Shown here one piece after another: positions 26,265 through 49,641 of a DNA stretch of 64,000 nt. Both the position numbers and the translations under genes were made by a program. The stretch lies in contig JAQIBX010000129.1 in the NCBI GenBank assembly GCA_027858895.1, forward strand, positions 1 to 64,000. The letters run 5' to 3'. The notes below the pieces were generated by a model. That model did no database searches. It had not been told where the DNA came from and saw nothing but the letters and a program-made list of their open reading frames with translations. The first letter of the stretch is position 1. Each line of letters starts with the position of its first letter. Origin of the DNA: Desulfuromusa sp. (GTDB lineage: Bacteria > Desulfobacterota > Desulfuromonadia > Desulfuromonadales > Geopsychrobacteraceae).

Positions 26265-26981
26265 TTAAAGCGATTGAGGAAAGATGTGTCCATAAAAATG
26301 AAACTTCTGAATAGATATAAATTCTTTTTTTGTCGCGATACTACAAACATAGTCAGGAGCAATTGGGAAAGCAATTAAGTGCCATTTTTTAGTTTTAGAA
26401 TGCTCATCGGCGAGAAGTATTTTTTGAAACCCAGCCCCATCAGCCTTTAATATAGCTTCTTTTTGGGTCCAGAGTCGATAAAATCCCCTTCTCTGTCTTT
26501 TAGCTGGATATGCTTCTAAGTGGAGTTTTTCATTCTCTGCAAAGTATCGATCGGCCAACTGAAAAAAATTTATTCCTGGTTCAATCTTCTCTATATCGAT
26601 ACCGACAGTAGCTTTATTGACAATTGCCAAAACACCCCAATCCCCGGAGTGGGATAAATTAAATGACAACAAGGAATGATGCGATTCCGCTAGCGTTGGT
26701 TTACCGTGTTGATTATATTGAAACTTGATCTGATCAGGATCAATTTTTTGATAATGACCCAATATTTGTCTTAAGCGAGCCCTTGCGACAATAAACTGTT
26801 TTTTTTTCTGCAGATCGAGTAAACGATCCGCCCGTCTTATTTCATCCGGCGTTAGCAGCTTCAGCAATATCTCTAATTTGTGTTCTGGGCAATCCAGCTT
26901 AAATCGCCAGAGATGCAGTTCACCCTCGTGGATAGTTGCCTCTTGCGGCGCTGGCTGCCAGCGCGTGATCTCAGGTTTCAC
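26265..26981 (-). CDS. Sfp-type 4'-phosphopantetheinyl transferase (PfaE-like)
   Basis: NLSHSGDWGVLAIVNKATVGIDIEKIEPG and RLWTQKEAILKADGAGF are Sfp/AcpT motifs. GTG at 26979-26981 is a plausible start next to the oleD stop; the track ORF extends to 27032. Confidence 0.85.
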   Translation of the reverse strand: MKPEITRWQPAPQEATIHEGELHLWRFKLDCPEHKLEILLKLLTPDEIRRADRLLDLQKKKQFIVARARLRQILGHYQKIDPDQIKFQYNQHGKPTLAESHHSLLSFNLSHSGDWGVLAIVNKATVGIDIEKIEPGINFFQLADRYFAENEKLHLEAYPAKRQRRGFYRLWTQKEAILKADGAGFQKILLADEHSKTKKWHLIAFPIAPDYVCSIATKKEFISIQKFHFYGHIFPQSL

Positions 26982-26982
26982 A

Positions 26983-27975
26983 TCATCGCCCTTGCTGCAA
27001 CCATTTTTGTAAATGCCGAATCCCCTCATCAAGAGACACCTCCGGATGATAGCCGAAATCTTCCTTTGCAGCGTTAAGATTGAACCAGTGGGCAGTCGAC
27101 AGTTCTTTTGCTACAAACCGTGTCATGCGTGGTTCGCCAGACAGCTTAAAGAGTCGATAAAGAGTTTCCAATACCGCACCAGCGGCATAAGCAGCTGCCG
27201 GAGAAATTGTTTTCGTCACACCAGGGAGATCCCCCGCAGCCAGAATCCGATTGATAATATCCCAGAGCGGACGTGGCTCATCGTTGGAAATAAAATATAC
27301 TTTCCCGGCAACAACAGAACCAACGGAAAGTTTTTCCGCGGCCTGGAGATGAGCTATGGCAGCATTGTCAATATAAACGCTATCGACCAGGCAAGGACTA
27401 TCTCCGATTCGGCGCAGAGTTCCAGCCCTGCCCCGTTCCAGAATGCGTGGCACCAGATGGTTATCCCCCGGCCCCCAAATCAGATGCGGTCGCAGCGCAA
27501 CGGTTGCCAGTGAAGCATCGTTAGCGGCAAGAACAAGCTGCTCGGCCTCAGCCTTGGTTTGTGGATACCAGGAATGAAAATGGGTTGGATAGGGGACCGA
27601 TTCATCGACCCCTTCCATATCAGAACCGTCAAAAACCACACTGGGAGAGCTGGTATAAACCAACCGGGTAATCTCACATTTTCTACAGGCCTGAATAACA
27701 TTTTTAGTGCCGATGACATTAGGTTGATAAAATTCTTCATAACCGCCCCAGACACCGGCTTTAGCAGCGACATGATAAATCAGATCACAACCATCAGCAG
27801 CCTTGATAACGGCAGAGAGGTCGGTCAAGTCGCCAACAAACTGCTCAACTCCCAATTGAGTTAGTTGTGGGTAAAGATTCCGCGCAAAAGAACAGACCTC
27901 AGTTCCCTGCTCAAGCAGTAATTCAACAATCGCCTTACCGAGAAACCCTCCACCACCAGTGACGAGAACCTTCAT
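26983..27975 (-). CDS. oleD: OleD-like NAD(P)-dependent 2-alkyl-3-oxoalkanoate reductase (extended SDR)
   Basis: MKVLVTGGGGFLGKAIVELLLEQG, YHVAAKAGVWGGYEEFYQPNVIGTKNVIQAC, SYPQTKAEAEQL-type YxxxK; adjacent to oleC/B/A. Confidence 0.85.
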   Translation of the reverse strand: MKVLVTGGGGFLGKAIVELLLEQGTEVCSFARNLYPQLTQLGVEQFVGDLTDLSAVIKAADGCDLIYHVAAKAGVWGGYEEFYQPNVIGTKNVIQACRKCEITRLVYTSSPSVVFDGSDMEGVDESVPYPTHFHSWYPQTKAEAEQLVLAANDASLATVALRPHLIWGPGDNHLVPRILERGRAGTLRRIGDSPCLVDSVYIDNAAIAHLQAAEKLSVGSVVAGKVYFISNDEPRPLWDIINRILAAGDLPGVTKTISPAAAYAAGAVLETLYRLFKLSGEPRMTRFVAKELSTAHWFNLNAAKEDFGYHPEVSLDEGIRHLQKWLQQGR

Positions 27976-29636
27976 CGCAATTGCTCCTGAGCCCAGACTG
28001 CAAGTTTTTCCCGGAAAATTTTAGCATTATGACGAATATCAACCGGAAATGCGGGATGAATCAAAAAATGCTGGATGTTTTTTGTCATATCATTGGTCTG
28101 GGCGATCCTCTGCAAATCTGCAAGAATAAGGTTTTCCTCTTGCTTCTTAACGCCCTTTTCCAGTTCGACACACATCACTGGCTGTTGCTTATTAATTTCA
28201 CCGACACCAACCAATGCGCTACGTAAAACTTTGTCATGGGTATTAAAAATCGCTTCACAGGGGATAGTAAACAAAGTTTCCGTTGGAGTTATAACCCGAT
28301 GTGCCTTCCGCCCACAAAACCAGATCCGCCCTTGCTCATCCCGATAACCAAGGTCTCCCATGCGGTGGAAATAACCCCCTCCGGATACTGCAATTTTTGC
28401 CAGCCGGGTTGATTCAGTGCGATTATAATAACCGCAGGTCACCTGTGGCCCTTTGACCACAATTTCACCGATTTCTCCATCATTCACCTTTAAATCATCC
28501 TGCCAGAATGGGAGTTCCTGATCATCAATCCGAATAATTTCAAGTTGTATACTTGGAACCGAAAAGCCGACACAGACCCCCTGCCCCTGATCAGTGGCAA
28601 AACGAGTTTCCTGAAGGATTGTCTCACTCCCGATAGAGCAGACCGGTAACGCCTCGGTCGCACCGTACGGGGTGAAAACCTGAACCCCGCTATTGAGCAT
28701 GGTAATAAATCGTTCCAACACCACAGCTGGAACCGGTGCCCCTGCTGAAATAGCCCTTTTCAGCGATGGTAGTTTAATACCGCGCCCTTCACCATACAGC
28801 CCAACTCGACGAATCAACGCCGGAGAACCGAACATCGTGGTCACATTGAAACGCTTAATGGCAGCGATGATATTTTCTGGATCAACAGAACCGGGGCGGG
28901 TAAAATCCATTTCCGGAATGACAGAAGTCATCCCAAGCGCTGGAGCAAACAAAGCAAAGAGCGGAAAGGTCGGCAGGTCAATTTCTCCAGGCTCAATCTG
29001 GTAGATAGTCTTTAATGCATCGACCTGAGCGATGAAGTTTCCATGACTGTACACTGCCCCCTTAGGAACACCGGTACTACCACTGGTAAAAAGAATTGCA
29101 GCCGTTTCATCAGCTGCAGTATGAGAAGTTTCGTAGTAATAATTGTGGGCAATAGGTTCGATCAGTTGAGTCAGGGTTGTTCCTCTCCAGAATAAACGCG
29201 GCCCAACCGTCAGAATTATCTTCAGACTCTCTTTCCCCCAACCAAGCAGCAATCTGGCAATCTGCGCTTTAGGTATGCCGATAAAGGCTTCGGGTTCAGC
29301 TTCAGCAAGACAGACCTTGAGGTTTTTGATTCCCATACCAGGATCGATCAATATCGGTATCGCACCAACCTTGAAAAGGGCAAATGTCAGAGCAAAAAAA
29401 TCGAGACTCGGTTTAACCATCAGGACAGTGCGTACACCACGACCAATACCGATTGACTCCAAACCAGCAGCAATTCGATTACTCTGCTGTTCAAGTTCAG
29501 CGTAAGTATAACTCTGATAAAGCGGTTGATTATGTTTATCCCGCTTATAGGGAAAATGAACTGCTGCGGTGGCCGGTTGTTTCGCCGCCATGAGGGGTAA
29601 ATGGGCAGCGATATTATGGCTTTGGGAACCGGACAT
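27972..29636 (-). CDS. oleC: OleC-like beta-lactone synthetase (AMP-dependent synthetase family)
   Basis: 554 aa; ILFTSGSTGVPKGAVYSHGNF, YGATEALPVCSIG, MGDLGYRDEQGRIWFCGRKAHRV; 4-nt overlap with oleD. Confidence 0.88.
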   Translation of the reverse strand: MSGSQSHNIAAHLPLMAAKQPATAAVHFPYKRDKHNQPLYQSYTYAELEQQSNRIAAGLESIGIGRGVRTVLMVKPSLDFFALTFALFKVGAIPILIDPGMGIKNLKVCLAEAEPEAFIGIPKAQIARLLLGWGKESLKIILTVGPRLFWRGTTLTQLIEPIAHNYYYETSHTAADETAAILFTSGSTGVPKGAVYSHGNFIAQVDALKTIYQIEPGEIDLPTFPLFALFAPALGMTSVIPEMDFTRPGSVDPENIIAAIKRFNVTTMFGSPALIRRVGLYGEGRGIKLPSLKRAISAGAPVPAVVLERFITMLNSGVQVFTPYGATEALPVCSIGSETILQETRFATDQGQGVCVGFSVPSIQLEIIRIDDQELPFWQDDLKVNDGEIGEIVVKGPQVTCGYYNRTESTRLAKIAVSGGGYFHRMGDLGYRDEQGRIWFCGRKAHRVITPTETLFTIPCEAIFNTHDKVLRSALVGVGEINKQQPVMCVELEKGVKKQEENLILADLQRIAQTNDMTKNIQHFLIHPAFPVDIRHNAKIFREKLAVWAQEQLR

Positions 29637-29639: not shown

Positions 29640-30569
29640 TTATCGGCCAGGAGTTGGGAGAGGATGGTCCTGCAGGAAATTTCTAATTATTGGCAGAACC
29701 TCATCGCGAGCATCTTCCAGAATATAATGTCCACAGTCGGCAAACGAGTGAACTTCAGCAGCAGGAAAATATTTCTGCCACTCAGTGAAAAAATTTCGAT
29801 CAAAAACAAAATCCTTTTCACCCCAACAGATACAGATTGGTAGTTCTGCAAAAGATGATAGACCGTTTTCAACCTGACTGATTAAATCATAACCAGGATC
29901 TGTTTTCTTAAGTGGAATATCCTGCACAAACCGGAGCGTCGCAATGCGATGCTGCCAATTATCATAGGGACTGCAATAAATTTTACGTAAATCAGCCGGC
30001 ATCCGCTTACGTTGGCAACCAACCCATGCAGCACCGCGGGCGAACAGGTTAAAGCCTTGCACCAGAAACACACCAAGTTGAGTGTCACGACAGATTTTAA
30101 GCGCCAATGGAAATCTTTTCGTGGTGGGCAAATGAAATGCTGCTGTGTTTAAAATAACCAATCGAGCTATGCGCTCCGGATGACGGATCGCCCAGGCCAT
30201 GCCAATCATTCCACCCCAATCGTGCAGAACCAGAGTGATTTTTTTCTTTAGGTTCAAGTTTTGCAACAAAACATCAAGATCATCGACCCGTTGTTCCAAG
30301 GTATACGAGTATTGTGAATCAGCAGGCTTGTCAGACAGTCCACAGCCAATATGATCGGGGACAATGAGACGATAGTTGCCCCGCAGTTCACGCACCAGAT
30401 GACGATAATAAAAAGACCAGGAAGGGTTGCCATGCAACATGACAACCGGATCGCCTTTGCCCTCATCCAGATAATGGTATTTCAAACCGTTCAGGTCTAA
30501 ATAATTATTTTTAAAAGGATATTCAGATTTGAACAAAGCAGTATCTAGCACGGTTAAATGTTCTCTCAA
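29640..30569 (-). CDS. oleB: OleB-like alpha/beta hydrolase (beta-lactone decarboxylase; haloalkane-dehalogenase fold)
   Basis: 309 aa; HGNPSWSFYYRHLVRELR, LVLHDWGGMIGMAWAIRHPERI (Asp nucleophile), FADCGHYILEDARDEV. Confidence 0.87.
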   Translation of the reverse strand: MREHLTVLDTALFKSEYPFKNNYLDLNGLKYHYLDEGKGDPVVMLHGNPSWSFYYRHLVRELRGNYRLIVPDHIGCGLSDKPADSQYSYTLEQRVDDLDVLLQNLNLKKKITLVLHDWGGMIGMAWAIRHPERIARLVILNTAAFHLPTTKRFPLALKICRDTQLGVFLVQGFNLFARGAAWVGCQRKRMPADLRKIYCSPYDNWQHRIATLRFVQDIPLKKTDPGYDLISQVENGLSSFAELPICICWGEKDFVFDRNFFTEWQKYFPAAEVHSFADCGHYILEDARDEVLPIIRNFLQDHPLPTPGR

Positions 30570-30605: not shown

Positions 30606-31649
30606 TTACCATTGAATAGCCATCATAATACAGTTAAGCCCACTGCCAATACCAAGAAAGCCAACCAGATCCCCCGGGCGAAGTTCATCACGTTCCCTGG
30701 CAATCGCAGCGGTAATCGGCAAAGAGACTGTCCCCATATTGCCAAGAAATTCAAAAGTAGGAAAGTCTTTCGCTGGATCAACTCCAATTGTTTGCAATAT
30801 CAGCTTCTGATGAGCTTCGCCGACCTGATGACAGATAACTTTATCAATCCTGTCAGCAGTAATTCCAAGTTCACTGGAAAATTCTGCCCAGGTACGTTTG
30901 CCCAACTCTACTCCATGTTTCATGACCGCAGCGGCATCAGTCTGCATATAAGGAACATGATTTTCGGGAGATTCGGTGTTGATTCCCCAGCGACAAAGTT
31001 TGTGAAATTGAGGTTCTGCGATGTTAACCCCACCGAGCAATTTAGGCCGTCTGGAAGGTGAAAATGATCCATCAGTCAAAAGAACAGCAGCAGCCCCGGA
31101 CCCCCCGGTTAACGTCGCTAAAGAAGTTGAAAACAATGCCATGGATGGATTGGCCAACATCTCCCCGATCATGATTTCATTGATTTCCCGGGAACTTTCG
31201 CACGCCACAACCAGACCCGCGCGAATCTGCCCCAGCTCTATCCGGTTAGCGATATCAAGAACTCCATTTAACACCCCAAGACAGGCATTTGAAGTATCAT
31301 AGATAGCAGCATTCCCCTGAACACCAAGAGCAGCTGCAACCTGACATGCCGTTGCCGGCTCAAAATGCTCACGGCAAACCCCGGCATAGACCACGGCACC
31401 AAGATCTTGTGGAGAAATATTACGTTCCTGCAGAGCCTTTTTAGCGGCAGCAATAGCACCGTGAGAAATCGGAGTGTTAGGCTTCCACCAGCGCCGCTCA
31501 CGAATCCCGGTCAACGCTTCTAACTGGCCGGGCGTAATGTGCAACGCTGTGTACATCGGTCGCAGACGATTTTCCAGCTCCGAAGAGGTGATGACAATCG
31601 GTGCCAATTCGTAACCGACAGACTCTATGTAAACTCTTGAATATTTCAT
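30606..31649 (-). CDS. oleA: OleA-like thiolase-superfamily acyl condensing enzyme
   Basis: TSNACLGVLNGV (Cys nucleophile), AGVCREHFEPATA (Glu region), VICHQVGEAHQ (His), EFLGNMGTVSLP (Asn). Start taken at MKYSRVYIES. Confidence 0.9.
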   Translation of the reverse strand: MKYSRVYIESVGYELAPIVITSSELENRLRPMYTALHITPGQLEALTGIRERRWWKPNTPISHGAIAAAKKALQERNISPQDLGAVVYAGVCREHFEPATACQVAAALGVQGNAAIYDTSNACLGVLNGVLDIANRIELGQIRAGLVVACESSREINEIMIGEMLANPSMALFSTSLATLTGGSGAAAVLLTDGSFSPSRRPKLLGGVNIAEPQFHKLCRWGINTESPENHVPYMQTDAAAVMKHGVELGKRTWAEFSSELGITADRIDKVICHQVGEAHQKLILQTIGVDPAKDFPTFEFLGNMGTVSLPITAAIARERDELRPGDLVGFLGIGSGLNCIMMAIQW

Positions 31650-31780
31650 CTGATCTTTTCGTCGATTTAAAAAATAATAAAGGGACACTCACAAAAAGGG
31701 CTAAGAATGTCAGAATGGATATGTAACATAAAGATACATGGCAGGTGAAGTGGCTCCATTCTGGAGATATCCGTCAATAA

Positions 31781-33166
31781 TTATTTCAATTGAAACAACG
31801 CCTTGTTCAGAGCATCCTTCATCACCTCCTCCAAAGAGGGGTGATAGACCGGCATCTGGAGGATTTCAGCGACTGTCATTTCATGCTCAATCGCCAACAC
31901 CAGAGTCTGCGCCATGTGTTCAGCGCCCCGACCGAATATTTCTGCTCCTAGCAGAGAGCCGCTCTCTTTATTGACATAAACCTGAATCATGCCGCGAGAA
32001 TCGTTATAAATTTCGTGACGGGGACCATGCCCCATCCGTGCCAGGCCGATTATGGTCTGATCAGGGTCAAGTGAGCTATAAGCAGTACCAACAGAGGCCA
32101 TTTGCGGGTCGGTAAAATAAACTCCCATCCCTGGAACCCTTTTACCCTCTTTCCGAGCGGGAAATTTGATGGCACTTGATGCGGCAATCCGACCTTCAAT
32201 ATATGCCTCGTGCCACAGGGGCAGATCTTCGGTTGCATCACCGGCAATAAAGACCGGCGCATCACCACATTGCATAGTCAGTGGATCATACTGAGGCAGC
32301 CCTCTAGAGTCGAGAGTGAGACCGGCGTTCTCAAGCTTCATACTGTGCAGATTAGAAATCCTACCGCTGGCAAGCAGCACCCGTTCATAGGATTTTGTAA
32401 TGATTTCACCATCCCCGGTGCGATAGGCCAGTTCATAACCGCCATCAACCTTGGTCGCATGGGTAAAATTTCCCTGTGGAATGATATTGAGTTCCTGCTG
32501 CAAGGTTCGCATCACTTCACGTTGCATGTCAGCGTGAGTAAAGGAACCGATCCGACCGCTGCGACCATAAAGAGTGGTTTCAACTCCGAGACGGTGAAAC
32601 GCTTGCCCCAGTTCCAGTGCGATGACTCCGAGGCCAACAACAGCCAGAGATTTGGGCAGAGCATCGAGCTCAAAGATGGTATCACTGGTATCAAGTTCAT
32701 GGCTCAGGGGTTCAAACACCGGTGAAACATAGGGGGTGGAACCGCAAGCGAGAATTATCTTGTCGGCCTTCACTCGCAATTTACCATCAACATCAATCGT
32801 ATGCAGATCGATAAACGTCGCTTTTCCTTCAACCTTAAATTGAGCCTTGATACTGTCAACATATTTCAGCACACTGCCAACAAACTTTTCCGCTCGATCC
32901 TGCTTTATCCGCTCAAATACGCGCTTGCCGTTGACCTGATAATGGCCATCAATGCCAAAATATGCACCTTCATCAATAGCATGTGCTATGTCTCCGGCAG
33001 CAATCAACATTTTACTCGGCATGCAGCCAACCCGGGCACAGGTGGTGCCGTAGGGGCCATGCTGAATCAGCAATACACTATCAGTCTGTTTACGAATCCG
33101 GCTGAAAGCACCAAGCCCCGCAGTCCCAACACCGAGAATGACATATTCTACTTCACGTGTTTCCAT
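31781..33166 (-). CDS. Dihydrolipoamide-dehydrogenase-like FAD/NAD(P) disulfide oxidoreductase
   Basis: 461 aa; VILGVGTAGLGAFSRIR, GTTCARVGCMPSKMLIAAG (CX4C redox pair), VVGLGVIALELGQAFHRLG, VFIAGDATEDLPLWHEAYIEG, MPVYHPSLEEVMKDAL. Confidence 0.92.
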   Translation of the reverse strand: METREVEYVILGVGTAGLGAFSRIRKQTDSVLLIQHGPYGTTCARVGCMPSKMLIAAGDIAHAIDEGAYFGIDGHYQVNGKRVFERIKQDRAEKFVGSVLKYVDSIKAQFKVEGKATFIDLHTIDVDGKLRVKADKIILACGSTPYVSPVFEPLSHELDTSDTIFELDALPKSLAVVGLGVIALELGQAFHRLGVETTLYGRSGRIGSFTHADMQREVMRTLQQELNIIPQGNFTHATKVDGGYELAYRTGDGEIITKSYERVLLASGRISNLHSMKLENAGLTLDSRGLPQYDPLTMQCGDAPVFIAGDATEDLPLWHEAYIEGRIAASSAIKFPARKEGKRVPGMGVYFTDPQMASVGTAYSSLDPDQTIIGLARMGHGPRHEIYNDSRGMIQVYVNKESGSLLGAEIFGRGAEHMAQTLVLAIEHEMTVAEILQMPVYHPSLEEVMKDALNKALFQLK

Positions 33167-33202: not shown

Positions 33203-36200
33203 TTAACTCAGCAGTTTGATAGAAAAATCTTTCAGCTGGTAGATGATTTTCCCGTCCACCGAGAGGTAACCATCCGCTTTCAGTGACCTAAGTTCGTCAT
33301 CGACCGCAGTAATTAATGCTTCAACCAGGACCTTTTTATTGGCTGGAACAATCTGACCACGATAATTCCAGCTGTGTTTTTCGCCGAGCACAACCGTTTC
33401 GAACTGTGAATTAGTGTCTACTCCCCACTTTTTGGCAGCAACGACCCTTAACAGTTGCAGGAACGATTCCAAACCAAGGGAACCGGGGCAGACAGGATCT
33501 TGATAAAAATGGGCCTTAAAAAACCACTCTTCGGGATCAACCATTTTACTGCCACGAATATAACCCAAACGATGAGGTCCGCCTTGCGGGGCAAATACCT
33601 CGATTTCATCAATCATACACAGTTTGGTGTCTGGATAGGGCAATTTTTGAGGATAAGCAAACTGCTCGGAGTTGGCAAGCTCCGCATCACTTACCAAATA
33701 GAGTGAAGCTCCCTGTACCCCAACCTGTTGCGCCAGTGACTCTTTGGAGAAGAAACCAAAAACGGTGTCACCACTGTAAACCGGTCCAGAGGAATCATTA
33801 ATTTCAAAATCGTAACCCTGAATGATCATCCCGCCACTGCTGGCAATCCGGGTGATTTTCACATTGGTGGTTAAGGTTCCAGATTGCGCCGTCACCGGTT
33901 TATGCTGAACGGCATGACCATCCAGATTGCGGAAGGAAAGATCGGTCTCACTGGTTAACGCCGAACCGAGATACGCGGCCAGCCAGCCGCAAGGTTGCAG
34001 GCCGATTTCAAGCAGAACGCTGAAAGGCATATTGGTCTGCCGATTGGCGTCAAAGTACCAGGCATCGGTTGGCACATCATATTCAGCTTCAACCGTCACC
34101 CCTTCAACCAGCTTCCATGGTTCACCGTTGATGGTAACAATCCGGTCCAGAAACTGAAACGGCGGACCCGGCAACCGGGCAATTTTACGCCCCTGATCAA
34201 ATATCCGATACGGTTCACCGAAGGCTTCAGATGGATTACCGATCGCGAAAGCGGTGATTCGATCAGTATCATAAAGTATTTGTTTCGGAGACAACTCTGG
34301 TTTTTGGAAACTTTGTGGCCGCCAGTGCGCTTCAACCTTTTCCCTATCCAACCCAGCCAGACGGACCGACATGTCGGGGATTTCTACGATCGGGTGGCCA
34401 TCAGCAAACATGAGGGCATCGACGATGGCATAGGGCTCTGGACGGTAGCCAAGCTCCTTGATGCTGACCTGATATGTTACGGTTCTGGTCGTCGCTATCA
34501 CCTGTCCACGACACTTCAGGCCGCTGGCAATTCCTGGAACCGGTTCACACCAGGTCTGACCTTCCTCACCTATCCAGCCCATCCGCAACAAATAGATGCG
34601 CAGAGTATGCATACAGCATTCGTACATCAGGGTACCAGGCATCACCTGATCATCAATAAAATGACAGGTCAAAAACCATGCATCCGGTTGAATATCCATC
34701 TCAGCAGTAATCTGCCCAATGCCGTAACGGCCGCCCTGCGGATCAAGTTCAATGACCCGATCAACCAGCTTCAATTGCCCTCCAGGTAGAGTGTACGGCT
34801 TGAAGGGCAAAGCAGAGAAATGCTTGCCGAAGCAGGTTTGTAAATCTCCCGCATAGAGAGCATTAATTTGATCGTCACGATAAGATTCGGTCTGCATCGG
34901 CACAAGTTCCTGCCAAGCGTGCGGCAGAATCCCTGGTTGCGGCATTAAATCGAGTTTGGTATGGATAATCCCTTGCCCTGCAGCAAGATCTTCCGCAGTA
35001 AAAAATCCGGCACAACCATGACGCATCGAGAGTAGCGGTTCATCATTCACTGTTCCCTCAAAATTAAAACGGAACAGATAAGTTTGATCCTGACGGAAAA
35101 ATTCTTCAATTTTTATATCGTAATGAATCGTATCTCCGACAACCGGCAAGCCACGATGGAAGGTCACAACGGCATCGAGGAGACGGTAGACAGCCTTACC
35201 TTTACTGATAAAATCGATCCCCAGGTAACCCGAGAGAAATAGATCCGCCTGCCCTGCTTCGACAGCAATGCAGGTGGGGATACGACCGCCGTCCAGATAC
35301 CAGCGCTCAGCGGTGACATCATGTTCCGTGACAACCCGACCATGGGTCATGGAACGTGGAACACCTTCGACCCCGAGGATTCGATCAACCAGCATCAGCG
35401 GACCATCAGGAAGGCGCACCCGGGTTGGATACGTATCAACTTCGGCAAAATCAGTACCGAGCATCTTCTCTACCGAACCAATAGCAAACTCCATACACAT
35501 GGATCGATCAAAAGCAATCGATCGATGCGGAGCAGCAAGATCGGTCACAATGGGGCTAGCTGTCACTGTCGAAACCGCACGGCTTGGAATTTTAGCCACA
35601 GATTGAAATGCAGGAATTTTCTCACCATTGTCAACAATCTGTTGCAACAGCGACGTTTGCAGAGAAATGTTCTCTGCCAAGGCCTGCCCAATCGTTTTAG
35701 AAAAACCAAGATAGGCTTCATGCGCAGCAACACCTGCGGATAACGTCTGATTAAATTGAGCGAGAATTGGATCAGAGATATCGGTATTTAGCGCTTGTTC
35801 CGATACCTCTGGTGGAACAGTCTTTTCTTTATCATCTACCTTAACTTGTTCATCAACATTCATTGTTTCAAAATCTAAATTATGTTTTTCAATTATTTTA
35901 ACATTGAAAGATTTTCCGCCAATAGTTGTGTAAATGCGATGCTCATGACGATCCGCTTGTAGAAATTCTTCAGGTAAAGGTGGATACAGTTTGTTGAGAT
36001 CTACCGGAATACGTTCGGCAAGACAGCTTCCAAGCAAACGAAGTAGTTGCGTGGTGGCATCCAGACCTGGGGCACACACTGAACGAGTCAGGTGGGATTG
36101 ATCTGACAGAATGCTGTTGATCATCCGACTACAGGACGTTCCGGGACCAACTTCGAGAAAAATCCGTGCACCATCAGCATACAACTGTTCAATCACCTGC

Positions 36201-39200
36201 GGATAATCGATAGTATCAAGTGCCTGAGCAAGGATAACATCAGCGGCATTACTGGAAGTCAGCGGGTATTTTTTTCCCAGCGCACAGCTGTAAAAATCGA
36301 TACCAGATGGTGGGGTCACACTAAAAAGGTGCAGTTGACGATAAGCATCAGAAACCGCTTTTGTCACTTCACAATGAACTGTCGTCACCCCTTGCAAGGG
36401 GATGAAATGGCAGCCGAGCTCCGCAACCAGTTTTTCAATCTGGGAGCGGTTTCCACCGACAACACATTCCCGTCGGGTATTGATAATCAACAGGTACGCC
36501 TGCTTCTTCCCTTGAAGATACTGTCGGACCTGTTCAGCAGGGAGATTCACCATTCCCAGAATCCAATCAACCTGCTGGTTAGACTTCAGTCCCCAAATCC
36601 GTTTTGCTGCCCGGCATTCTCCCGCGAGTTCATTAGTAAACAAGGGCGACTTTTCAAGTCGCTGCAGCATCCCGTCGCGATCCTTCCAGGCACCGGAAGA
36701 AAAAAGTCCGGCCGACTCACCCAAACTATAACCACTAATCATCTGTGGTTTAATTCCGAAATGCCTTACCAGATCACTCAAAGCTGTGCATTGGGCAACA
36801 TGAGAGATCACCAGCGCATTATGATTGTCCTGAATCGACTCCGACAATTCTGCTTTCCAGAAATGTTCGGGGAGATATTGATCCGCCAGATATTTATTGT
36901 TCTGCTCCTGCTGCAGGTAGATCTCAGGCCAGTGTGCCGACAGCTCACGTCCCATCCCAGCAAAATGGTTACCAGAACCGGGAAACACAAAAGCAACTTT
37001 ACTTTTTGCGCCTAAGGGTTTTGCAGCATAAAAAATACGATCACGGATGGCAGGAATAAGTTGCAGCTCTCCGTTAACACCAATAGATTGGTGAGGACTT
37101 TCTGCAATCAGCTGTTGTGCATAATCAAGCTGGGTGGCGAAGGTCTTATAATCGTCCGCTATGAGACTCAGGCAATATTGCTGTTCAGGGTCGAGCGGAT
37201 TTTGCACAATCCACAAACGTGCGAGAGTATCGATCGGCTGATCGGCAAATTTATAAGAAAATTGCCGCAACGTGTCTATTTTAGCAAGCAGCTTCTCAGG
37301 GGTAGCGGCTTCAATAACAAACAACCCTTCCGGTAACGCTCCTAGAGGGCGGAAGGATGATGTAGATTTCCCTGGGGTTGATGTGCCCACATATTCTTCC
37401 AAAATGACTTGCGAGCAAGACCCATCACTGCCAATTCCACTGACCAGTGCTCGTCGCAACCCTTCAGCGCGATTGCTCAACCAGTATTGAGCTGCCGCTG
37501 GAGCAATAAATTTTCGCTTATCACGAACCCATTCTGGACTTAAAACGTGCAAATTCCGCAACGGTGGTAGAATTTTATGCTGCAGACAGAGTGCTGTTTT
37601 GACCAGCGAAGCCAGACCGGCAGCAGCTCCAGCATGACCGATATCTGCCTTTACGCTGCCAATTTTACAGCTATTGCTGTTTACTTTAAGACCAATCACA
37701 GACCCAAGGACTTGTGCCTCCAGGCGATCAACAGCCGGAACGCCACAGCCTTCAGCCTCAAGATAAGAGATTGATTCTGGAGGGATATTGCCATTTTGGC
37801 AGGCTAGCTCTACAGACTTAGCATATATTTCTTGTTTGGGGATGATGCTATCAATTTGCCCACCGATTGCCGTGCCGGTGCCTTTGATAACAGCATAGAT
37901 ACGATCACCATCCTGCCGGGCATCTTCCAGCCGCTTTAAGACCAGGGCCGCGGCACCTTCACCAATCAAGCTACCAGCGCTATCTTTATCAAAAGGGCAC
38001 CCTGCCCCATTAGTAGAAAAAGACTTATTACTGTGACGGCTGAGAACCGCTCGCAGATCTCCAGCCAGGTCAACTGCACCAACAATAGCACGGTTAATCG
38101 ACCCTTCCTGAAGGGAGTGGATCGCCACTTCAAGAGCTCTGAGACCTGAATTTTCCTCGCTTGAAAGAGTAAAGCTGGGGCCACCAATACGAAATTCTTT
38201 GGCAATCCGACTGGCAACGACGCTGCCGAGAGCTCCCATGGTACGATTCGCTGTCAGCGCCGGCCCCGCTGCTTCGCGCAATTCGTCCAGCCAGGCCGAA
38301 AACTGTCGCTCGTCCAAGTTCAGGCCCAACTCATCAGCCCATTGACGGGCGTATCTTTGCAGCCCCCAGCGAAAACTGAAATTTGTCGCATTGAGATCGA
38401 GACCGCTGCCGATATAGACACCGGCAAACAAGAGATCTTTATCGGTCAGCTGTGCATCCTTCAGTGCCGCTGCTGCAACTTTCAACATCAGCAACTGGCG
38501 TGGCAGCATCTCTTCCTGTTCTTTCGGCGGAATACGAAATTCACCTGGGTTGGAACATACTTCCGGGACGAAAAAACCCCGGAAATTGACCTTATCCAGC
38601 CCTGATTGTTGATACCAACGACTCCCCTGTATTCCCCACCAGTTGGTCGGAGTTGCCGATTTAACCTCATCCAGCGCTCCGAATACGCGGTGCTGGAACT
38701 GTTCCAGATTTTCCCAGGGACCAAATTGAGCACCCATACCGACAATGGCAACGGGCTCGTTTCTCTGACTGGACGATGGGTGCAATCTTACCGGGCTCTT
38801 CTGTTTTTTTTCAGGAACCCATTCCTCCAGGAGTAGATGAGCATTGATTCCACCAAAGCCGAAGGCACTCACAGCAGCGCGACGCGGTTGTCCACCTTTT
38901 CTGCTATCCCAGTGCTCGGTTTGATTGAGGATCCGAAAAGGGCTTTTATCCAGAGCAATACCAGTTGCGGGATCGGTAAAATTAACCATCGGCGGCAAAG
39001 TCTGCTTGTTCATAGCCAGTATGGTTTTAATCATTGCAGCAGACCCAGCTGCAGTCAGCAAATGACCAATGTTTGCCTTAACCGAACCAATCACACATTG
39101 CCCAGGCCGCCAGCCGCTTTCTTGCCAAAGCTGTTGCAGACTAGAAAATTCGACCGCATCGCCGACCGGTGTACCGGTCGCGTGACATTCGATCAGATCG

Positions 39201-40165
39201 ACATCGGCGGGTGACCATCGCGCCTGTTGATAAGCTGCACGCATCGCTCGCAATTGCCCTTCAGCGGCAGGGGCCAGCAGATTTCCACCCAGGTCATTTG
39301 ACAAACCAATACCGCGGATAACGGCATGGATATGATCCCCATCCCGAAGCGCATCCTCAGTGCGTTTAAGCAGGAGCAGCCCACATCCCTCGCCAACAAC
39401 AAGACCGTTACCATGCTGATCAAAGGGGGAACAAATCCCGCTTGGGGAAAGAGCGCGTAATTGTGAAAATCCCATCTGGGTATAGAGTGAGTCGGGTCGT
39501 GACAATCCACCGGCAAGCATGGCATCAGCTCGACCAGATTTCAGTTCATCCACAGCAAGTTTGATGGCATAGAGAGATGAAGCGCAAGCAGCATCAACGG
39601 TAAAGCAAGTCCCTTCGAATCCCAGGACCTTGGCCAACAGACCCGCTGGAAGACCCGCGACATAATGATTGATCGGTGCAATCGTTGAATCATCAAGCGA
39701 TAGCTCTTGCTCGGACAGTTTCTCCATAAAGGTTCGGCCAAGATAATGTCTTGCCAATGCTGATGCTTTCTCACTTGGCAGCGCCAGATTGCCAATAATA
39801 ATGCCGGCACGACTGCGATTAACTTTCTCCGTAGCAACGGTGGATAAAGTTTGTTGGCCAACGCGCAGCAACAGCCGAAACATGGGATCAAGGCTGGCAA
39901 GAAAGTCGGGATCAATAACCAGTCCGGGGATGTGTGCCGTATCGATTTCATCATCGAGAAAACAGGCTTTTTGAGAATAGACTTTATCGGGGGAACCTAC
40001 CTGCGGATCAAAAACATCTTCGACTGGAAGTAACCAGCGGCCCTGTGGTGGTTGGCGCGAGGTATTTACGTTAGCAACAATATTATCCCAGAAACGATCA
40101 AGGGTCGGAGAATTAGGGAACATTCCACCGACCCCGACAATCGCAACAGATTTTTCAGACAACAT
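33203..40165 (-). CDS. pfaC: PUFA-synthase-type megasynthase PfaC/Pfa3-like: KS-CLF-AT-(hotdog DH)x4
   Basis: 2320 aa; KS DAACASSLYA...ECHATGTPVGD...IGSVKANIGH; CLF SSEENSGLRAL lacking the active Cys; AT GYSLGESAGL; four FabA-like hotdog segments (LPDGPLMLVDRI, LPGGQLKLVDRV, LPGPPFQFLDRI, LPYPDTKLCMIDEI). Ends right after the last hotdog, with no AGPAT or thioesterase. Confidence 0.93.
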   Translation of the reverse strand: MLSEKSVAIVGVGGMFPNSPTLDRFWDNIVANVNTSRQPPQGRWLLPVEDVFDPQVGSPDKVYSQKACFLDDEIDTAHIPGLVIDPDFLASLDPMFRLLLRVGQQTLSTVATEKVNRSRAGIIIGNLALPSEKASALARHYLGRTFMEKLSEQELSLDDSTIAPINHYVAGLPAGLLAKVLGFEGTCFTVDAACASSLYAIKLAVDELKSGRADAMLAGGLSRPDSLYTQMGFSQLRALSPSGICSPFDQHGNGLVVGEGCGLLLLKRTEDALRDGDHIHAVIRGIGLSNDLGGNLLAPAAEGQLRAMRAAYQQARWSPADVDLIECHATGTPVGDAVEFSSLQQLWQESGWRPGQCVIGSVKANIGHLLTAAGSAAMIKTILAMNKQTLPPMVNFTDPATGIALDKSPFRILNQTEHWDSRKGGQPRRAAVSAFGFGGINAHLLLEEWVPEKKQKSPVRLHPSSSQRNEPVAIVGMGAQFGPWENLEQFQHRVFGALDEVKSATPTNWWGIQGSRWYQQSGLDKVNFRGFFVPEVCSNPGEFRIPPKEQEEMLPRQLLMLKVAAAALKDAQLTDKDLLFAGVYIGSGLDLNATNFSFRWGLQRYARQWADELGLNLDERQFSAWLDELREAAGPALTANRTMGALGSVVASRIAKEFRIGGPSFTLSSEENSGLRALEVAIHSLQEGSINRAIVGAVDLAGDLRAVLSRHSNKSFSTNGAGCPFDKDSAGSLIGEGAAALVLKRLEDARQDGDRIYAVIKGTGTAIGGQIDSIIPKQEIYAKSVELACQNGNIPPESISYLEAEGCGVPAVDRLEAQVLGSVIGLKVNSNSCKIGSVKADIGHAGAAAGLASLVKTALCLQHKILPPLRNLHVLSPEWVRDKRKFIAPAAAQYWLSNRAEGLRRALVSGIGSDGSCSQVILEEYVGTSTPGKSTSSFRPLGALPEGLFVIEAATPEKLLAKIDTLRQFSYKFADQPIDTLARLWIVQNPLDPEQQYCLSLIADDYKTFATQLDYAQQLIAESPHQSIGVNGELQLIPAIRDRIFYAAKPLGAKSKVAFVFPGSGNHFAGMGRELSAHWPEIYLQQEQNNKYLADQYLPEHFWKAELSESIQDNHNALVISHVAQCTALSDLVRHFGIKPQMISGYSLGESAGLFSSGAWKDRDGMLQRLEKSPLFTNELAGECRAAKRIWGLKSNQQVDWILGMVNLPAEQVRQYLQGKKQAYLLIINTRRECVVGGNRSQIEKLVAELGCHFIPLQGVTTVHCEVTKAVSDAYRQLHLFSVTPPSGIDFYSCALGKKYPLTSSNAADVILAQALDTIDYPQVIEQLYADGARIFLEVGPGTSCSRMINSILSDQSHLTRSVCAPGLDATTQLLRLLGSCLAERIPVDLNKLYPPLPEEFLQADRHEHRIYTTIGGKSFNVKIIEKHNLDFETMNVDEQVKVDDKEKTVPPEVSEQALNTDISDPILAQFNQTLSAGVAAHEAYLGFSKTIGQALAENISLQTSLLQQIVDNGEKIPAFQSVAKIPSRAVSTVTASPIVTDLAAPHRSIAFDRSMCMEFAIGSVEKMLGTDFAEVDTYPTRVRLPDGPLMLVDRILGVEGVPRSMTHGRVVTEHDVTAERWYLDGGRIPTCIAVEAGQADLFLSGYLGIDFISKGKAVYRLLDAVVTFHRGLPVVGDTIHYDIKIEEFFRQDQTYLFRFNFEGTVNDEPLLSMRHGCAGFFTAEDLAAGQGIIHTKLDLMPQPGILPHAWQELVPMQTESYRDDQINALYAGDLQTCFGKHFSALPFKPYTLPGGQLKLVDRVIELDPQGGRYGIGQITAEMDIQPDAWFLTCHFIDDQVMPGTLMYECCMHTLRIYLLRMGWIGEEGQTWCEPVPGIASGLKCRGQVIATTRTVTYQVSIKELGYRPEPYAIVDALMFADGHPIVEIPDMSVRLAGLDREKVEAHWRPQSFQKPELSPKQILYDTDRITAFAIGNPSEAFGEPYRIFDQGRKIARLPGPPFQFLDRIVTINGEPWKLVEGVTVEAEYDVPTDAWYFDANRQTNMPFSVLLEIGLQPCGWLAAYLGSALTSETDLSFRNLDGHAVQHKPVTAQSGTLTTNVKITRIASSGGMIIQGYDFEINDSSGPVYSGDTVFGFFSKESLAQQVGVQGASLYLVSDAELANSEQFAYPQKLPYPDTKLCMIDEIEVFAPQGGPHRLGYIRGSKMVDPEEWFFKAHFYQDPVCPGSLGLESFLQLLRVVAAKKWGVDTNSQFETVVLGEKHSWNYRGQIVPANKKVLVEALITAVDDELRSLKADGYLSVDGKIIYQLKDFSIKLLS

Positions 40166-40330: not shown

Positions 40331-40365
40331 CAATAGATTTTCATTCCCTTTTAGCTCTTCGTGAT

Positions 40366-43300
40366 TCAAGCAACTCCGATCAACTTATTACGCTGAAACG
40401 TCGCATTCAAGGAGGCATCGATAACACATTCATAGTTTTCTATCCGCGCAACCAATAGATCATTAAGTGGATCAATGAAGTCGATATTGGCTATGGCCCG
40501 GTTATGGTTTTGTTGGGTCAATTGAACTCGTATTTCAACGCCACTTTCAGGAAATTTCGGTTGATATTGCCGGTAACGTTCGACAAAAACCGGTAAAGAC
40601 CCCGACTTGTATTGTTCAAAACTCCACAAAATCAACATTTGAAAGCTGCAGTCCAACGCCAGAGGATCAGCAAGCCAGGAGTTACGTAACGGTTGCTCAA
40701 TCCACCGACTTGGCAAAGGCGCCGGATTAACCAGAGCGCTGATACCCTCAATGGAGGAGCCAATAACTTCACGGATGCCGTGAAAATCTGCGCCATGAAA
40801 TAAACGTTCCGGTTGATAAATCTCACTTCTTGAAAATGGATATTCGGGCAAGGTCAACTTTTCAGCTTTCATTTTCCGCTCTGGCAAACGGGAAGCAAGA
40901 ACAATTTTTGCCCGGGCATGTGCGATCTGCCGACCCTGGTTATCAACCCCGGAAAGTTCAACCGGAACAACATGAACGCCATCCCCTTTAATAGCTTTGC
41001 CCGTCAGCACCTGCAGAGTAACGCCCTGCTGCGGTTCAAGGGTTACCCCTTTAAGGATGCGCAGATCATTGAACCCCTGGAATTTAAGACCCGGATTATT
41101 GTGGAGTGCACCGTGAGCCAACCATTCAACAACAATTGCTGTTGGCAGGACGGCTTTACCATCCATGACATGCGACTTTAAAAACGGATACTGTGCAATA
41201 TCAAGATCCAGATCGAACGCTTTGGAAACACAGATATTCTGCGGTAACTCAGCCAATTCTTCAGCTTTGGCGTCAATATCCCCTCCAGAAATGATCAATT
41301 CAACCGGTCCACCAGGAGTGGTTGAAAGCTCCTTAAGTAGATAGTCGGCCCCAGCCTGCAGATCGATCACCTCGATCCCTTCCCGTTCAAAAACCTTTTT
41401 CAGGGCCGGAGTCACCATTCCCCCATTCCAGGGTCCCCAATTCAATGAAAGGACCCGGCAACCTGGTCGCAATTCTGCTTGTTGGTCGGCTATTTTATTG
41501 AGAATTTCATTCGCTACGGCGTAGTCGACTTGTCCTATTCTGCCAAAGCGTCCGGTTGAGGAAGAGAACATCACCAGAAACTTCAGATCGTCTTCACCTA
41601 TTGCAGCAAGAAGTGCTCTAAACCCTGCAACTTTAGTCGAATAAACCTGCTCAAACTGTTCTACGGTCTTCTCTTTGATCAACTTATCTGCCAGGACCCC
41701 GGCACCATGAATCAAACCTTTGACCGGGCCATATTGTTCTCGGATTTCATCAAGAAGAGAGCTCATTGCTTGCTGATCACGTAAATCAACTGAGCGATAA
41801 ATTGCCGTTCCTCCTGATTTTAAAATCCGCTCCAAAGTTGTGCGAATTTCTCGCTCCGCCAGTATTTGTTGGTATTGGCGTGCCACATCCAACGGTTTCA
41901 AAGGAACTTCAGATTGAGCTAGCAGAGCCTTTTTTATCTCTCCTTCAACCTGGAGATCAGCTAACCATGCAGGTTCATTCTCAGGTAGTGGGGTGCGCCC
42001 CAACAGCAACAACGTTGCCTGAGTCGCAATGCTGAGTGCCACAGCAACTTCCGCCGTTACCCCTCGAGCACCACCACTAATAACAATCAGATCTCCAGAC
42101 TGAACAGGCAGATGAGGAGCAACCCCAGCAAGCGGCTCTGAAACCAACTCAAGCGTATTCAACCCCTGAGTGCTGATCCCAATTTCAACCGGGCTCACTT
42201 TGAATATTTCAGCAACAATCGCGGTCGCGGTCGGCAGAACCTCCATCCCCATCGCCAGATCAATTGCTTTACAATGGATTGCCGGCCACTCCAAGGCAGC
42301 TGTTTTACTCAATCCAGCCAAGCCACCAGAAAGTGAATCATTGATCAATTTGGTTGCACCAAGGCCAAAATAACCATTTATTCGTGAAACGGTTGCGAAA
42401 AAAGCACCACCACGCTCTGCGCTATTGTGCAATGCTGGTTCCACTTTCTGCAACAATTTAAAAGCATTGCGAAGAAACAGATCATCTGCGCCCGGCAAAG
42501 GTGCAAGAATAACCAGACCAGCCAAGTTATCAGGGAGAGAAATAGAATTCAGATCCGCTAGAGAAGTTTTACGGGGAATAAGCTGGCGATCGCTTAAGTT
42601 GGAACAAAGCGCATCAGATAATGACGATCCATCATCGGTAATCCAGACTTCTGCTCCGATGGCAAAGTCAAGTTTCTTGCCCGCTCGTTTTTGCGGCAAA
42701 GAAACAGAATGCAACACTTGCCTGAGGATCTCTTTTGGCACAGCAGTTTCACCGCTGCTGGCCTTAATTTCCTTCTCTTCTGCACCGGATATGCTCGCCA
42801 GGAAATCAACAATTTGTCCAACTGTCTGCAACGTTCCAAGATGCTCCGGTTTAATTGCCGGTGTTCCTGGCAAGTGCTCCTGCAGAGCAGAGAGTATTTC
42901 TACTCGTTTAATTGAATCAATTCCCAGGTCGGTATCAAGCGCCATGTCCAGTTCCAGCATCTCGACCGGATAGCCAGTTTTCTCTGCAATAACATCGAGT
43001 AAAATAGTCGAAACCTGCTGTCGATCGACCTGTCCCAGTTGTGGCGGTTCCGCCGCAATGGTTGGGATTCGTTGCTGGGTTTCCTGGCAGAGATGATCGA
43101 CAATTTGTCCAAGAGTTTGCAGGACACCAAGATCCTCGGGACGAACTGCGGGGAGCTCTGGTAGCTGCTCCTGTAAGGCAGAAAGAATTTCAACCCGCTT
43201 GATCGAATCAATTCCCAGGTCGGTATCAAGGGCCATTTCCAGCTCCAGCATCTCGGCCGGATAACCAGTCTTTTCAGCAATCACTCCCAGTAAAGTGGAT

Positions 43301-46300
43301 GAAATAGAGTCCCGATCGGCCTGACCACTTGGTCGCGTTGCAGAAATAGTTGGGATATGCTGCTGCTCCCCCTGACAAAGATGATCGATAATTTGTGCTA
43401 GAGTTTGTAGCACTCCGAGATCCTCGGGACGAACCGCTGGAAGGTTTGGTAGCTGCTCCTGCAGAGCAGAGAGAATTTCAACCCGTTTAATTGAATCAAT
43501 TCCCAGGTCGGTATCAAGGGCCATGTTCAGTTCCAGCATCTCGACTGGGTAGCCAGTCTTTTCAGCAACGACTCCCAGCAGTACGTCTGCAACTTGATCT
43601 TGATCAGCACCGGTTGCAACTGCTGGAATAGCCATCGATCCAGGAATACCTGAATCGAGATAATCGACTATCTGCCCGAGAGTTTGCAGTGCACCCAGAT
43701 CTTCCGGACGGATAACTGGAGCGGACGGTAGTTTTTCCTGCAGAGCCGAGAGGATTTCGACCCGCTTGATCGAATCAATTCCCAAATCGGTATCCAGCGC
43801 CATCTCCAGTTCCAGCATCTCGACCGGATAACCAGTTTTTTCGGCAATAATCTCAAGCAAAAGAGGTGCGACACTTTCGTTGTTCGTAGCAGCGACAGGT
43901 TCCTGTGTTGGCTCTAAAACACTCAGGTCTGGCTGCACACTAACTGGTTCAGTAGCAGGAGATAGTATTGGTGCTGGCGGTACAACCATAGATGAACCCG
44001 TTGCGCCCTGGAGTAACATACGCTGTTGATCAACCAGTTGCATAAATGACTGGGTTGCCGTTTGCTGCCCTTCTAAAAATTGTTGATGCAGTTTAGATGT
44101 CTGTTCCTGTAGAGTTTGCAAAGCTTGCATACTCTGCTGCGTGATCCGCAAGGCCTCCTGCAAATTGCCGGTTTCGACCGAAGCTGCGACCGACTGGTTG
44201 GGTATTGATTGAGCTGTGCTCTTGGCAGTTACAACATCTTGTGTTGATTGAGGCACAGAGGTAACATTCTTCACCTTTAAAGGTGGTCGTTTTTCAGGTT
44301 TTTTATAGTAGTTAGCACCACAGATAGAAACGGAGATCCCCTTCTTTTTCTGCCCCGATTGCTGCTGTGTGGCGGCAAATCCTTCGTCCCATAGCGATAA
44401 TGCTATCGGTTGACCAAGAACAGACAGTTTCGCCAACATTCGTGCCAGATCATTAATTGCTGAACGCTTACCGTTAGAAGAATCAAGAGCCACAGCCTGG
44501 TATTCCCGGCCAGCAAGGATCGCCTTAACCATACTGGTCAAGCGCCCACCAGGTCCGGCTTCAACAAATATCCGATGGCCTGCCTGATACATAGTTTCGA
44601 TTTCAGTAACAAAATCGACCGGGCTGGCTAATTGCTCCGCCAGTAATTTCCTGACTGCAACAGCAGAATCTGGATAGCTTGCACCGGTGGTGTTGGAAAA
44701 GACATTTTTCCGCGGGTCTTTAAAGTTAACGCTCTGCAGTTTTTCAGCAAATGGCTGTGCTGCTGAGGCAATAAGTTGACTGTGAAAAGCAGCCGCTACC
44801 GCCAGCTGTTTGTTGCTGATTCCTCTTTGATTCAGCAACTCAATCGCTTTTTCAATTTCAGCAGTGGCACCTGACAAAACAGCTTGCTCTGGCGTATTGC
44901 GGTTGGCTAATACCAGATCGAGAGCTTCTTCAGCCAGAAAGTCTTCAACTTGTTTGAGGGGTGCCGAAACCGCTACCATCGAACCTCGATCACCTTCACC
45001 GGCAGCCATCAACTCACCACGCAAGCGGGAAAGATTATGCAAATCTTCAGTGGTAAAAACTTCAGCAGCGCAGAGAGCAACTAACTCGCCATAACTATGC
45101 CCAGCGACAGCATCCGCCTCAACACCAAATCCGGCTAGAACCCGGCCAGCCGCTAAACTGACAGCGCCAAGAGCGGGCTGAGCAACCTCTGTCGCCTGTA
45201 ATTCAGCGACTGCATTCTGTTTTGCTTCCGGGATAAACATAGGACGGGGATAGACCATATTGGTCAGACTTCCGCTCGCCAATTCAGCGTTTAAACCAAA
45301 AGCCTGATCGGCATCCTGTAAAGTTGCCAGGAAGGTTGGAAACTGGAGGGCAAGATCTTTCAACATCCCCGGATATTGAGCTCCCTGACCCGGGAAAAGC
45401 ATGGCAATGGTGCCACAAGATTCACCCGCCGCGTAGTAAATGCCGTCGGGTGTTTCCCAGAGCTGTTGGCCCTGGTTTTTCTCCAGCATAGCGAGAGCTT
45501 TTTTCAATTGGTCAGGTCGATCCGTTTGACCTTTTTCAGCGACTAAAATAAGGCGCTTCGGATCTGTCGGTTTAAACTGACTCCGTTTTTCGGCAGCAGC
45601 CAAGCGAAATTGAGACCAGTCCCCTTCGCTTGAAAAATTGCGCACTGTGTTCACAAGTTCAATATCATTAGCGGCAGAAAATGGGATAATCTGGACATTG
45701 CCATCCCAATCGACAACCTGTTTCTCTGACTGATACTCTTCCAGTAGACAATGAAAATTACTGCCGCCGAAACCAAGAGCACTAACTCCGGCACGACGTG
45801 GGTGGTCAACCTTTTGTATCCATGGACAAGTTTCGGTATTGACATAGAAAGGGGTATCAGCAGCGATAAGACTTTCTGGCGGTTTTTCTACCTTAATCGT
45901 TGCCGGTAAAACCTTATGATAGAGTGCCAAAGTCGCTTTAATCAGACCAGCCACACCGGCTGCCGCTTTGGTATGACCAATCTGTGATTTGATTGATCCC
46001 AGGGCACACCAAGGTTTTTCCGCAACGCCAAATACTTCATGTAATGCATTAACTTCAATCGCATCGCCGACTCTGGTTCCGGTGCCATGACCTTCGATCA
46101 GCTCAATTGTATCGGGGGTGACATTGCCTTGCTCATAAGCCCTTAACAGCGCTTTCGCCTGACCTTTGGCATTTGGTTCATAAATTGCGGAGCCGCGCCC
46201 ATCACTCGACGCACCGATCCCCTTGATGACGGCATAAATGTTATCCCCATCCCGCTCGGCATCCTCCAGCCGCTTCAGAACCACTATACCTAAACCCTCA

Positions 46301-48779: not shown

Positions 48780-48789
48780 ACTGACTCTC

Positions 48790-49641
48790 CTAAAGGGATT
48801 CCAAAGCTGCCTGAATTTGGTCAACGATCTTCTTTGGGGTCGAAGCCCCAGCCGTCAGACCAATTTTATCGAATTTTCGCAATTCAGCCAGAGGTAATTC
48901 ATCGGCTGTTTCAACGTGCAAAGCCTTGGTTCCACTGGTTTCTATCACCTGCGCTAAGCGCCTGGTATTGCTGCTGTTATAGCCACCTGCAACAATGACA
49001 AAATCGGATTGATCGGCAATGTTGATTGCCTCCCCTTGGCGCATTTTTGTCGCATCACAGATTGTATGCAGAACAACGAGATCAAGACCCTTGCGCTTTG
49101 ATAACTCACGGCTGATTGCATCAAAAATATGCTTATCCTGGGTTGTTTGTGCCGCTAGACAATACTTGAAGTCGGGATTGATATCACACTTCTGGCACTC
49201 TTCAAGACTGTCAAAAACGATGGTATCACCAGCCGCATAGCTCAGCAAACATTTAACCTCTGGATGAGCCTCCTCACCAAACAGGAGAAGAACCCTCCCC
49301 TTATCCGTATTATCTTCAATTAACAGGCAGGCATCTTTCACCTTGGGACAGGTTGCATCAATGACATGAATACCTCGCTGAGAGAGCGAATACTGCACCT
49401 GCTTGGTAATTCCGTGAGCACGAATAACCACGATTGAACCGGCAGGAATATCTTCCGGCGAATCGGCGCTTATCACCCCTTTTTCGGCATACGCTGCAAC
49501 GACCTGGGGGTTGTGAATAATAGAACCGAGAATGTAAATATCCCCGGAGATATTTTTCTTCTCTATTATTTCATCCAACTTATGTAATGCCAGGCTGACC
49601 CCCATACAGAAGCCAGCACTTTTGGCGCGAATGAACTCCAT
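48790..49641 (-). CDS. ispH: 4-hydroxy-3-methylbut-2-enyl diphosphate reductase
   Basis: AKSAGFCMGVSLALHKLDE, VIRAHGITKQV, IDATCPKVKDA, GYNSSNTRRLAQV, LTAGASTPKKIVDQI. Confidence 0.95.
   Translation of the reverse strand: MEFIRAKSAGFCMGVSLALHKLDEIIEKKNISGDIYILGSIIHNPQVVAAYAEKGVISADSPEDIPAGSIVVIRAHGITKQVQYSLSQRGIHVIDATCPKVKDACLLIEDNTDKGRVLLLFGEEAHPEVKCLLSYAAGDTIVFDSLEECQKCDINPDFKYCLAAQTTQDKHIFDAISRELSKRKGLDLVVLHTICDATKMRQGEAINIADQSDFVIVAGGYNSSNTRRLAQVIETSGTKALHVETADELPLAELRKFDKIGLTAGASTPKKIVDQIQAALESL

Follow-up and report, generated by a model that had tools for sequence, protein, structure and literature searches.

Clusters in which pfaB and pfaC are fused were described by Shulse and Allen (2011) as Type I, with the hosts Geobacter, Pelobacter, Desulfuromonas and Gemmata; they were proposed to supply olefin synthesis, and a 31:9 alkene was cited for Geobacter bemidjiensis (PMC3098273). 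When pfaA-E of Shewanella were combined with oleA in an Escherichia coli fadD mutant, a 31:8 ketone was obtained, and even inactive OleA lowered EPA (Allemann 2019, PMC6463001). PfaB has been described as a terminal acyltransferase (PMC12895367), and an AT-like counterpart in thraustochytrids was reported to be a thioesterase (PMC8003026). A C-terminal AGPAT domain has been described as a feature that only the synthases of terrestrial myxobacteria possess (PMC8436480).

We analyzed a stretch of 64,000 nucleotides from Desulfuromusa sp. (contig JAQIBX010000129.1; hereafter the window), in which ispH, pfaD, Pfa2/PfaA, Pfa3, a dihydrolipoyl-dehydrogenase-like gene, oleA, oleB, oleC, oleD and a phosphopantetheinyl transferase gene follow one another on the same strand (Table 1). 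It is highly probable that this locus encodes a Type I pfaBC-fusion synthase that serves OleABCD hydrocarbon synthesis exclusively or is at least coupled with it. The architecture, homology, conservation and synteny behind this explanation were computed here, whereas the actual product and the acyl donor in this organism are inferred; the use of Pfa-bound chains by OleA, the activity of PfaB and the 31:9 alkene of Geobacter bemidjiensis are taken from papers on relatives.

Table 1. Features of the pfa-ole locus, with positions in the window (residue numbers refer to Pfa3)
Feature	Position	Strand	Basis
Pfa3 / PfaBC fusion, KS-CLF-AT-DH2, 2320 aa	33203..40165	-	ATG start; Pfam, structure model
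KS domain, residues 5-448, triad C194/H328/H368	38822..40153	-	Pfam, residue check
CLF domain, residues 471-935, SSEENSG at 668	37361..38755	-	Pfam, motif
PfaB-type AT, residues 1054-1395, Y1146, S1147, N1229, H1264	35981..37006	-	PDB match 9RY8
FabA-like hotdog 1, about residues 1551-1725, without catalytic His, invariant E1636	34991..35515	-	Alignment, model
FabA-like hotdog 2, about residues 1760-1938, H1835, E1849	34352..34888	-	Alignment, model
FabA-like hotdog 3, about residues 1966-2147, without catalytic His, invariant E2053	33725..34270	-	Alignment, model
FabA-like hotdog 4, about residues 2160-2319, H2219, E2233; extends to C-terminus	33209..33688	-	Alignment, model
Pfa2 / PfaA, KS-MAT-4xACP-KR-PKS-type DH	40366..47151	-	Pfam; TIGR02813 1660.9 bits vs cut-off 1010.1
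PfaD / Pfa1 enoyl reductase	47148..48824	-	TIGR02814 613 bits vs cut-off 449
Dihydrolipoyl-dehydrogenase-like flavoprotein between pfa3 and oleA	31781..33166	-	Family match
OleA, head-to-head condensing thiolase	30606..31688	-	NF006720 472 bits vs cut-off 285
OleB, alpha/beta hydrolase (beta-lactone decarboxylase)	29640..30569	-	Haloalkane dehalogenase families below cut-off; operon position
OleC, beta-lactone synthetase	27972..29636	-	NF006754 over cut-off; olefin beta-lactone synthetase 699 vs cut-off 850 bits
OleD, 2-alkyl-3-oxoalkanoate reductase	26983..27975	-	NF042422 452 vs cut-off 580 bits
4'-Phosphopantetheinyl transferase (PfaE role), HGKP and FNLSH motifs	26265..27032	-	Family match, motifs

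Pfa3 had been read from its sequence as KS, CLF with SSEENSG, AT with GYSLGES and four FabA-like segments followed directly by the stop, and Pfam, the motifs and a structure model bear this out. Pfam found the KS and a second KS-like domain (CLF), and an Acyl_transf_1 match just below threshold (30.2 vs 32.7 bits); the AT motif GYSLGES lies at residue 1145. NCBIfam and Pfam agree on the order KS, CLF, AT and FabA-like domains. The KS triad is complete (C194/H328/H368). The acidic residues of the four hotdogs (E1636, E1849, E2053 and E2233) are invariant across 44 sequences, and a catalytic His is confined to hotdogs 2 and 4 (H1835, H2219), being missing from hotdogs 1 and 3; we read the four as two pseudo-dimeric (double-hotdog) dehydratases, that is, the 'DH2' unit of Pfa synthases.

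The sequence-only reading had likened this layout more to the myxobacterial type than to the marine one. This does not hold: the layout is specific to neither and corresponds to the published Type I (PMC3098273). The locus has the fused pfaBC with KS-CLF-AT-DH2, the ER (pfaD) and a pfaA-like KS-MAT-ACPn-KR subunit, with TIGR02813 and TIGR02814 above their cut-offs, and it has neither the separate AT-bearing pfaB of the marine pfaABCD clusters (Types A and B) nor the C-terminal AGPAT of myxobacterial Pfa3. The phosphopantetheinyl transferase carries HGKP and FNLSH, which fit the Type I motifs P1a, x(G/D)xP, and P1b, (F/S)NxSH; the P0 motif hRxhLS has no exact match, the corresponding LRQILG differing at the last letter. 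In a FastTree KS-CLF tree, whose rows are homologues other than the strains of PMC3098273 themselves, the KS grouped with Geobacter and planctomycete members in an 81-row Type I group, apart from six other fusions, on a starred branch with the fork drawn open. The KS/CLF phylogeny that had been proposed as a check thus places the synthase in Type I, while its other part, the relation to marine pfaABCD and characterized myxobacterial references, which are not in this tree, rests on the published tree. The Desulfuromusa-like locus is a Type I pfaBC-fusion cluster, of a type that has been published and occurs in many bacteria; its nearest named relative is that of Desulfuromusa sp. BB25 (L105, 80% identity). 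Two records titled Klebsiella pneumoniae and Akkermansia muciniphila (L069 and L097) also contain Type I pfa-ole loci; they group with environmental bins, and their titles look like those of mislabelled MAGs.

Homologues of OleA, OleB, OleC and OleD lie in one operon, in which OleC and OleD score under their equivalog cut-offs and are putatively identified by best family plus gene order. The order ER-Pfa2-Pfa3-ole had been recognized correctly, except that the dihydrolipoyl-dehydrogenase-like gene separates Pfa3 from oleA; among 80 related loci, a gene of this kind in that place was found only in two from Desulfuromusa (L045 and L105). The ispH gene (window 48790-49656) is the sole copy in the genome and lies immediately upstream of pfaD; its stop codon is directly followed by a GGAGAG box. 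This arrangement suggests that ispH, an essential isoprenoid gene, may be co-transcribed with the synthase, and PfaD likely starts at an internal TTG after this box, just past the ispH stop. An ispH gene precedes pfaD in eight related loci as well (L045, L047, L050, L055, L060, L075, L081 and L105). The spacer between pfa2 and pfa3 (window 40166-40365) is 200 bp long, compared with only about 2 bp in close relatives such as L009, and contains short CACAAAG/CACGAAG direct repeats; the idea that it is a dispersed repeat was rejected, as it has one copy in the genome.

We compared the internal AT of Pfa3 with solved structures and with other acyltransferases. Its best solved match was PfaB of Shewanella baltica (9RY8), aligned over the whole domain with an E value of 6.3e-31 (runner-up, 5e-12). 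In the AT tree, to be read with caution for its long branches, PfaB and the ATs of Pfa3 lay on one side of a starred branch and FabD and the malonyl transferases (MATs) of Pfa2 on the other. Six rows that bear the label Pfa2MAT yet fall on the Pfa3 side duplicate the Pfa3 AT as best hit (zero-length pairs); they arose where the Pfa2 copy was either outranked or absent from the sampled DNA. Ser1147 and His1264 are present in all sampled AT rows, Tyr precedes the Ser in 20 of 25, and the Desulfuromusa domain retains Tyr-Ser-His. The AT of Pfa3 accordingly combines a GYSxGE motif, a Ser-His dyad and a grouping with PfaB apart from the malonyl transferases. The profile for whole PfaB (TIGR02816) scored 105.6 bits, below its cut-off of 144.3, with a match that spans profile positions 174-529 only, the N-terminal part being absent. 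In a deep-branching Type I pair from MAGs with planctomycete and Bacillota titles (L119 and L121), the Pfa3 AT has GHSLGE instead of GYSLGE, and oleA directly follows pfa3.

The AT had been placed inside the CLF subunit, and the genome (2.78 Mb, 98.7% complete) is in accord with this: Acyl_transf_1 domains were found only in FabD, Pfa2 (MAT) and Pfa3 (AT), with no separate PfaB, and a class-wide sample of 369 genomes likewise yielded no separate PfaB. Because the AT is PfaB-like and keeps its catalytic residues, a candidate release activity is present in Pfa3, and the domain may be regarded as a candidate release enzyme in mid-protein. The claim that the synthase has no terminal release domain had overlooked this internal AT.

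The best 80 genome matches, taken as 80 homologous loci, were all of Type I. Among the 61 of these that include 1.5 kb or more of downstream sequence, 53 have oleA no more than 2 kb downstream of pfa3 on the same strand; the OleA match in 27 of these 53 starts at most 11 bases from the pfa3 stop, or at a negative distance from it. As for the remaining eight, oleA lies 6-9 kb away in two, a strong oleA is found elsewhere in the genome in five, and L114 gave a weak thiolase match only. The linkage of pfa and ole in Type I, known in 2011 from nine strains, is thereby extended to dozens of genomes, which by their NCBI titles belong to many phyla. Since the linkage is widespread and, in roughly half of the loci that show it, the pfa3 stop is near to or overlaps the oleA match, Type I is well suited to studying whether one and the same ACP-bound chain is contested by OleA and the PfaB-type AT.

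We propose the following pathway. The phosphopantetheinyl transferase would activate the four tandem ACPs of Pfa2, on which Pfa2 (KS-MAT-KR-DH), Pfa3 (KS-CLF with two FabA-like dehydratase/isomerase units) and PfaD would build a methylene-interrupted polyunsaturated chain. Two such chains would be taken by OleA, most likely straight from the ACPs, and condensed head to head, after which OleD, OleC and OleB would convert the OleA product to a long polyunsaturated alkene, which is probably of the 31:9 type. The AT of Pfa3, as a PfaB-type long-chain acyltransferase, may control the flux and could release chains.

A different main product, judged unlikely, would be membrane polyunsaturated fatty acid, released by the PfaB-type AT or by a separate thioesterase, with ole diverting part of the flux. 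The conserved catalytic residues of the AT would suit such a role, as would the 4HBT hotdog proteins (seven) and PF01553 acyltransferases (two) that are encoded elsewhere in the genome, and one Shewanella Pfa synthase supplies both EPA and alkene (PMC6463001). However, the operon has no thioesterase, and when four of the seven 4HBT proteins were compared with the PDB in a search for a PfaT (Orf6) homologue, none retrieved Photobacterium Orf6. The tight and widespread linkage of pfa3 and oleA in Type I suggests that hydrocarbon is the main product.

Somewhat less likely still is that OleA uses acyl-CoA formed by hydrolysis and re-activation rather than ACP-bound chains. OleA enzymes do accept acyl-CoA in vitro (for review, see PMC6463001 and PMC7064751), but the 31:8 ketone made from pfa and oleA in the fadD mutant indicates that an acyl-CoA synthetase is not required (PMC6463001), and no acyl-CoA ligase besides OleC was found among the operon genes scanned. 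Direct hand-over from ACP to OleA, which the sequence-only reading had suggested, is plausible; it already has experimental support in Shewanella (PMC6463001), and the synteny observed here agrees with it. We consider it improbable that this coupling goes further, such that Type I synthases are dedicated to hydrocarbons, the PfaB-type AT no longer releases fatty acids and instead loads or gates chains for a docked OleA, and the resulting Pfa3-AT-OleA complex sets the alkene chain length (C16).

We further analyzed the C-terminus of Pfa3. Its last 1000 residues, searched alone with Pfam, gave four FabA matches and no further match up to E = 1. The same type of search did detect the AGPAT of an Azospirillum homologue that served as positive control (L130; PF01553 at 2652-2794, 6.5e-10). 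A single-sequence model of these 1000 residues was uninformative (mean pLDDT 31.5), was not used, and was replaced by a model of residues 1540-2320 from a 44-row homologue alignment, with plasmid-derived rows left out. This model (mean pLDDT 91.5) contains four hotdogs, and its final strand is predicted to stop two residues short of the C-terminus. FabA dehydratases were its top PDB matches, two-hotdog acyl-ACP thioesterases ranking far lower, with a fold common to all. The structure prediction thus gave four hotdogs and no AGPAT or extra thioesterase domain, and the absence of an AGPAT, as first noted, is borne out alike by Pfam, by the model and by the relatives.

Among the best 80 loci, the C-terminus is complete in 69, and these end 69-114 residues past the last HxxxDxxxPG catalytic-His motif, most of them at 98-110; they are spread over many phyla and have the same end point with or without an adjacent oleA. 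Full-length homologues from the same order stop at the same position as Pfa3 of Desulfuromusa. In L055, L076, L080, L082, L086 and L114, both the AGPAT and, in the downstream DNA examined, oleA are absent. Five more distant AT-bearing fusions, from two Persicobacter plasmids, one Streptomyces plasmid and two genomes of a gammaproteobacterial sample (L129, L131, L132, L153 and L154), end 106-108 residues past the last His motif, and ole genes were not found in their flanks. Since complete relatives lack the AGPAT both with and without a nearby oleA, the adjacency of OleA and the absence of the AGPAT are unlinked.

That Pfa3 once had an AGPAT (release) domain, lost it and left its role to OleA, as first proposed, is very improbable: the AGPAT is indeed absent and the next gene is usually oleA, but every complete relative is without the domain, including the six loci with no oleA nearby, the distant fusions without ole in their flanks stop alike, the domain has been described as something that myxobacteria alone have added (PMC8436480), and the AT is still there, with Ser and His kept in all sampled ATs. 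No AGPAT has been lost from Pfa3; the Type I subfamily has none. In the compared set, the AGPAT is the exception (L130), which matches its published description as myxobacterial (PMC8436480). This corrects a tempting inference: to lack the end domain is normal, and the candidate release enzyme lies in mid-protein.

Two homologues have longer tails. On an Azospirillum lipoferum plasmid (L130:9591-18377), a 2929-aa Pfa3 homologue comprises KS, CLF, AT, four FabA-like domains, a PKS-type dehydratase and a C-terminal AGPAT, a Minicystis-like Pfa3 layout outside myxobacteria. The other (L158:8896-17934; 3013 aa) continues for about 840 residues past the last catalytic His; this tail includes a PKS-type dehydratase-like stretch but gave no AGPAT match in Pfam.

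Compared with known systems, the AT of Desulfuromusa Pfa3 resembles PfaB of Shewanella baltica (9RY8, PMC12895367) in its full-length alignment, GYSxGE motif and Ser-His dyad, whereas PfaB is stand-alone, the Desulfuromusa AT is fused between CLF and DH, and the position of Q539 is occupied by Asn. Myxobacterial Pfa1-3 of Aetherobacter and Minicystis (PMC6731297, PMC8436480) share the order ER, Pfa2, Pfa3 and, in both genera, an AT inside Pfa3, but their Pfa3 has the C-terminal AGPAT that is absent here. Shewanella pfaABCDE with oleABCD and its 31:9 alkene (PMC6463001) offers the same enzymes, the presumed chemistry and an OleA coupled to Pfa ACPs, although there the AT belongs to a separate PfaB whose N-terminal region is KS-like, and the pfa genes may be located away from the ole genes. 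The Type I cluster (PMC3098273) shares the fused pfaBC, the ER, the PfaA-like subunit, a nearby PPTase, an anaerobic deltaproteobacterial host, the co-occurrence with ole and the proposed olefin role; the Desulfuromusa locus differs from it in detail only, by the dihydrolipoyl-dehydrogenase-like gene between pfa3 and oleA and by ispH directly upstream of pfaD.
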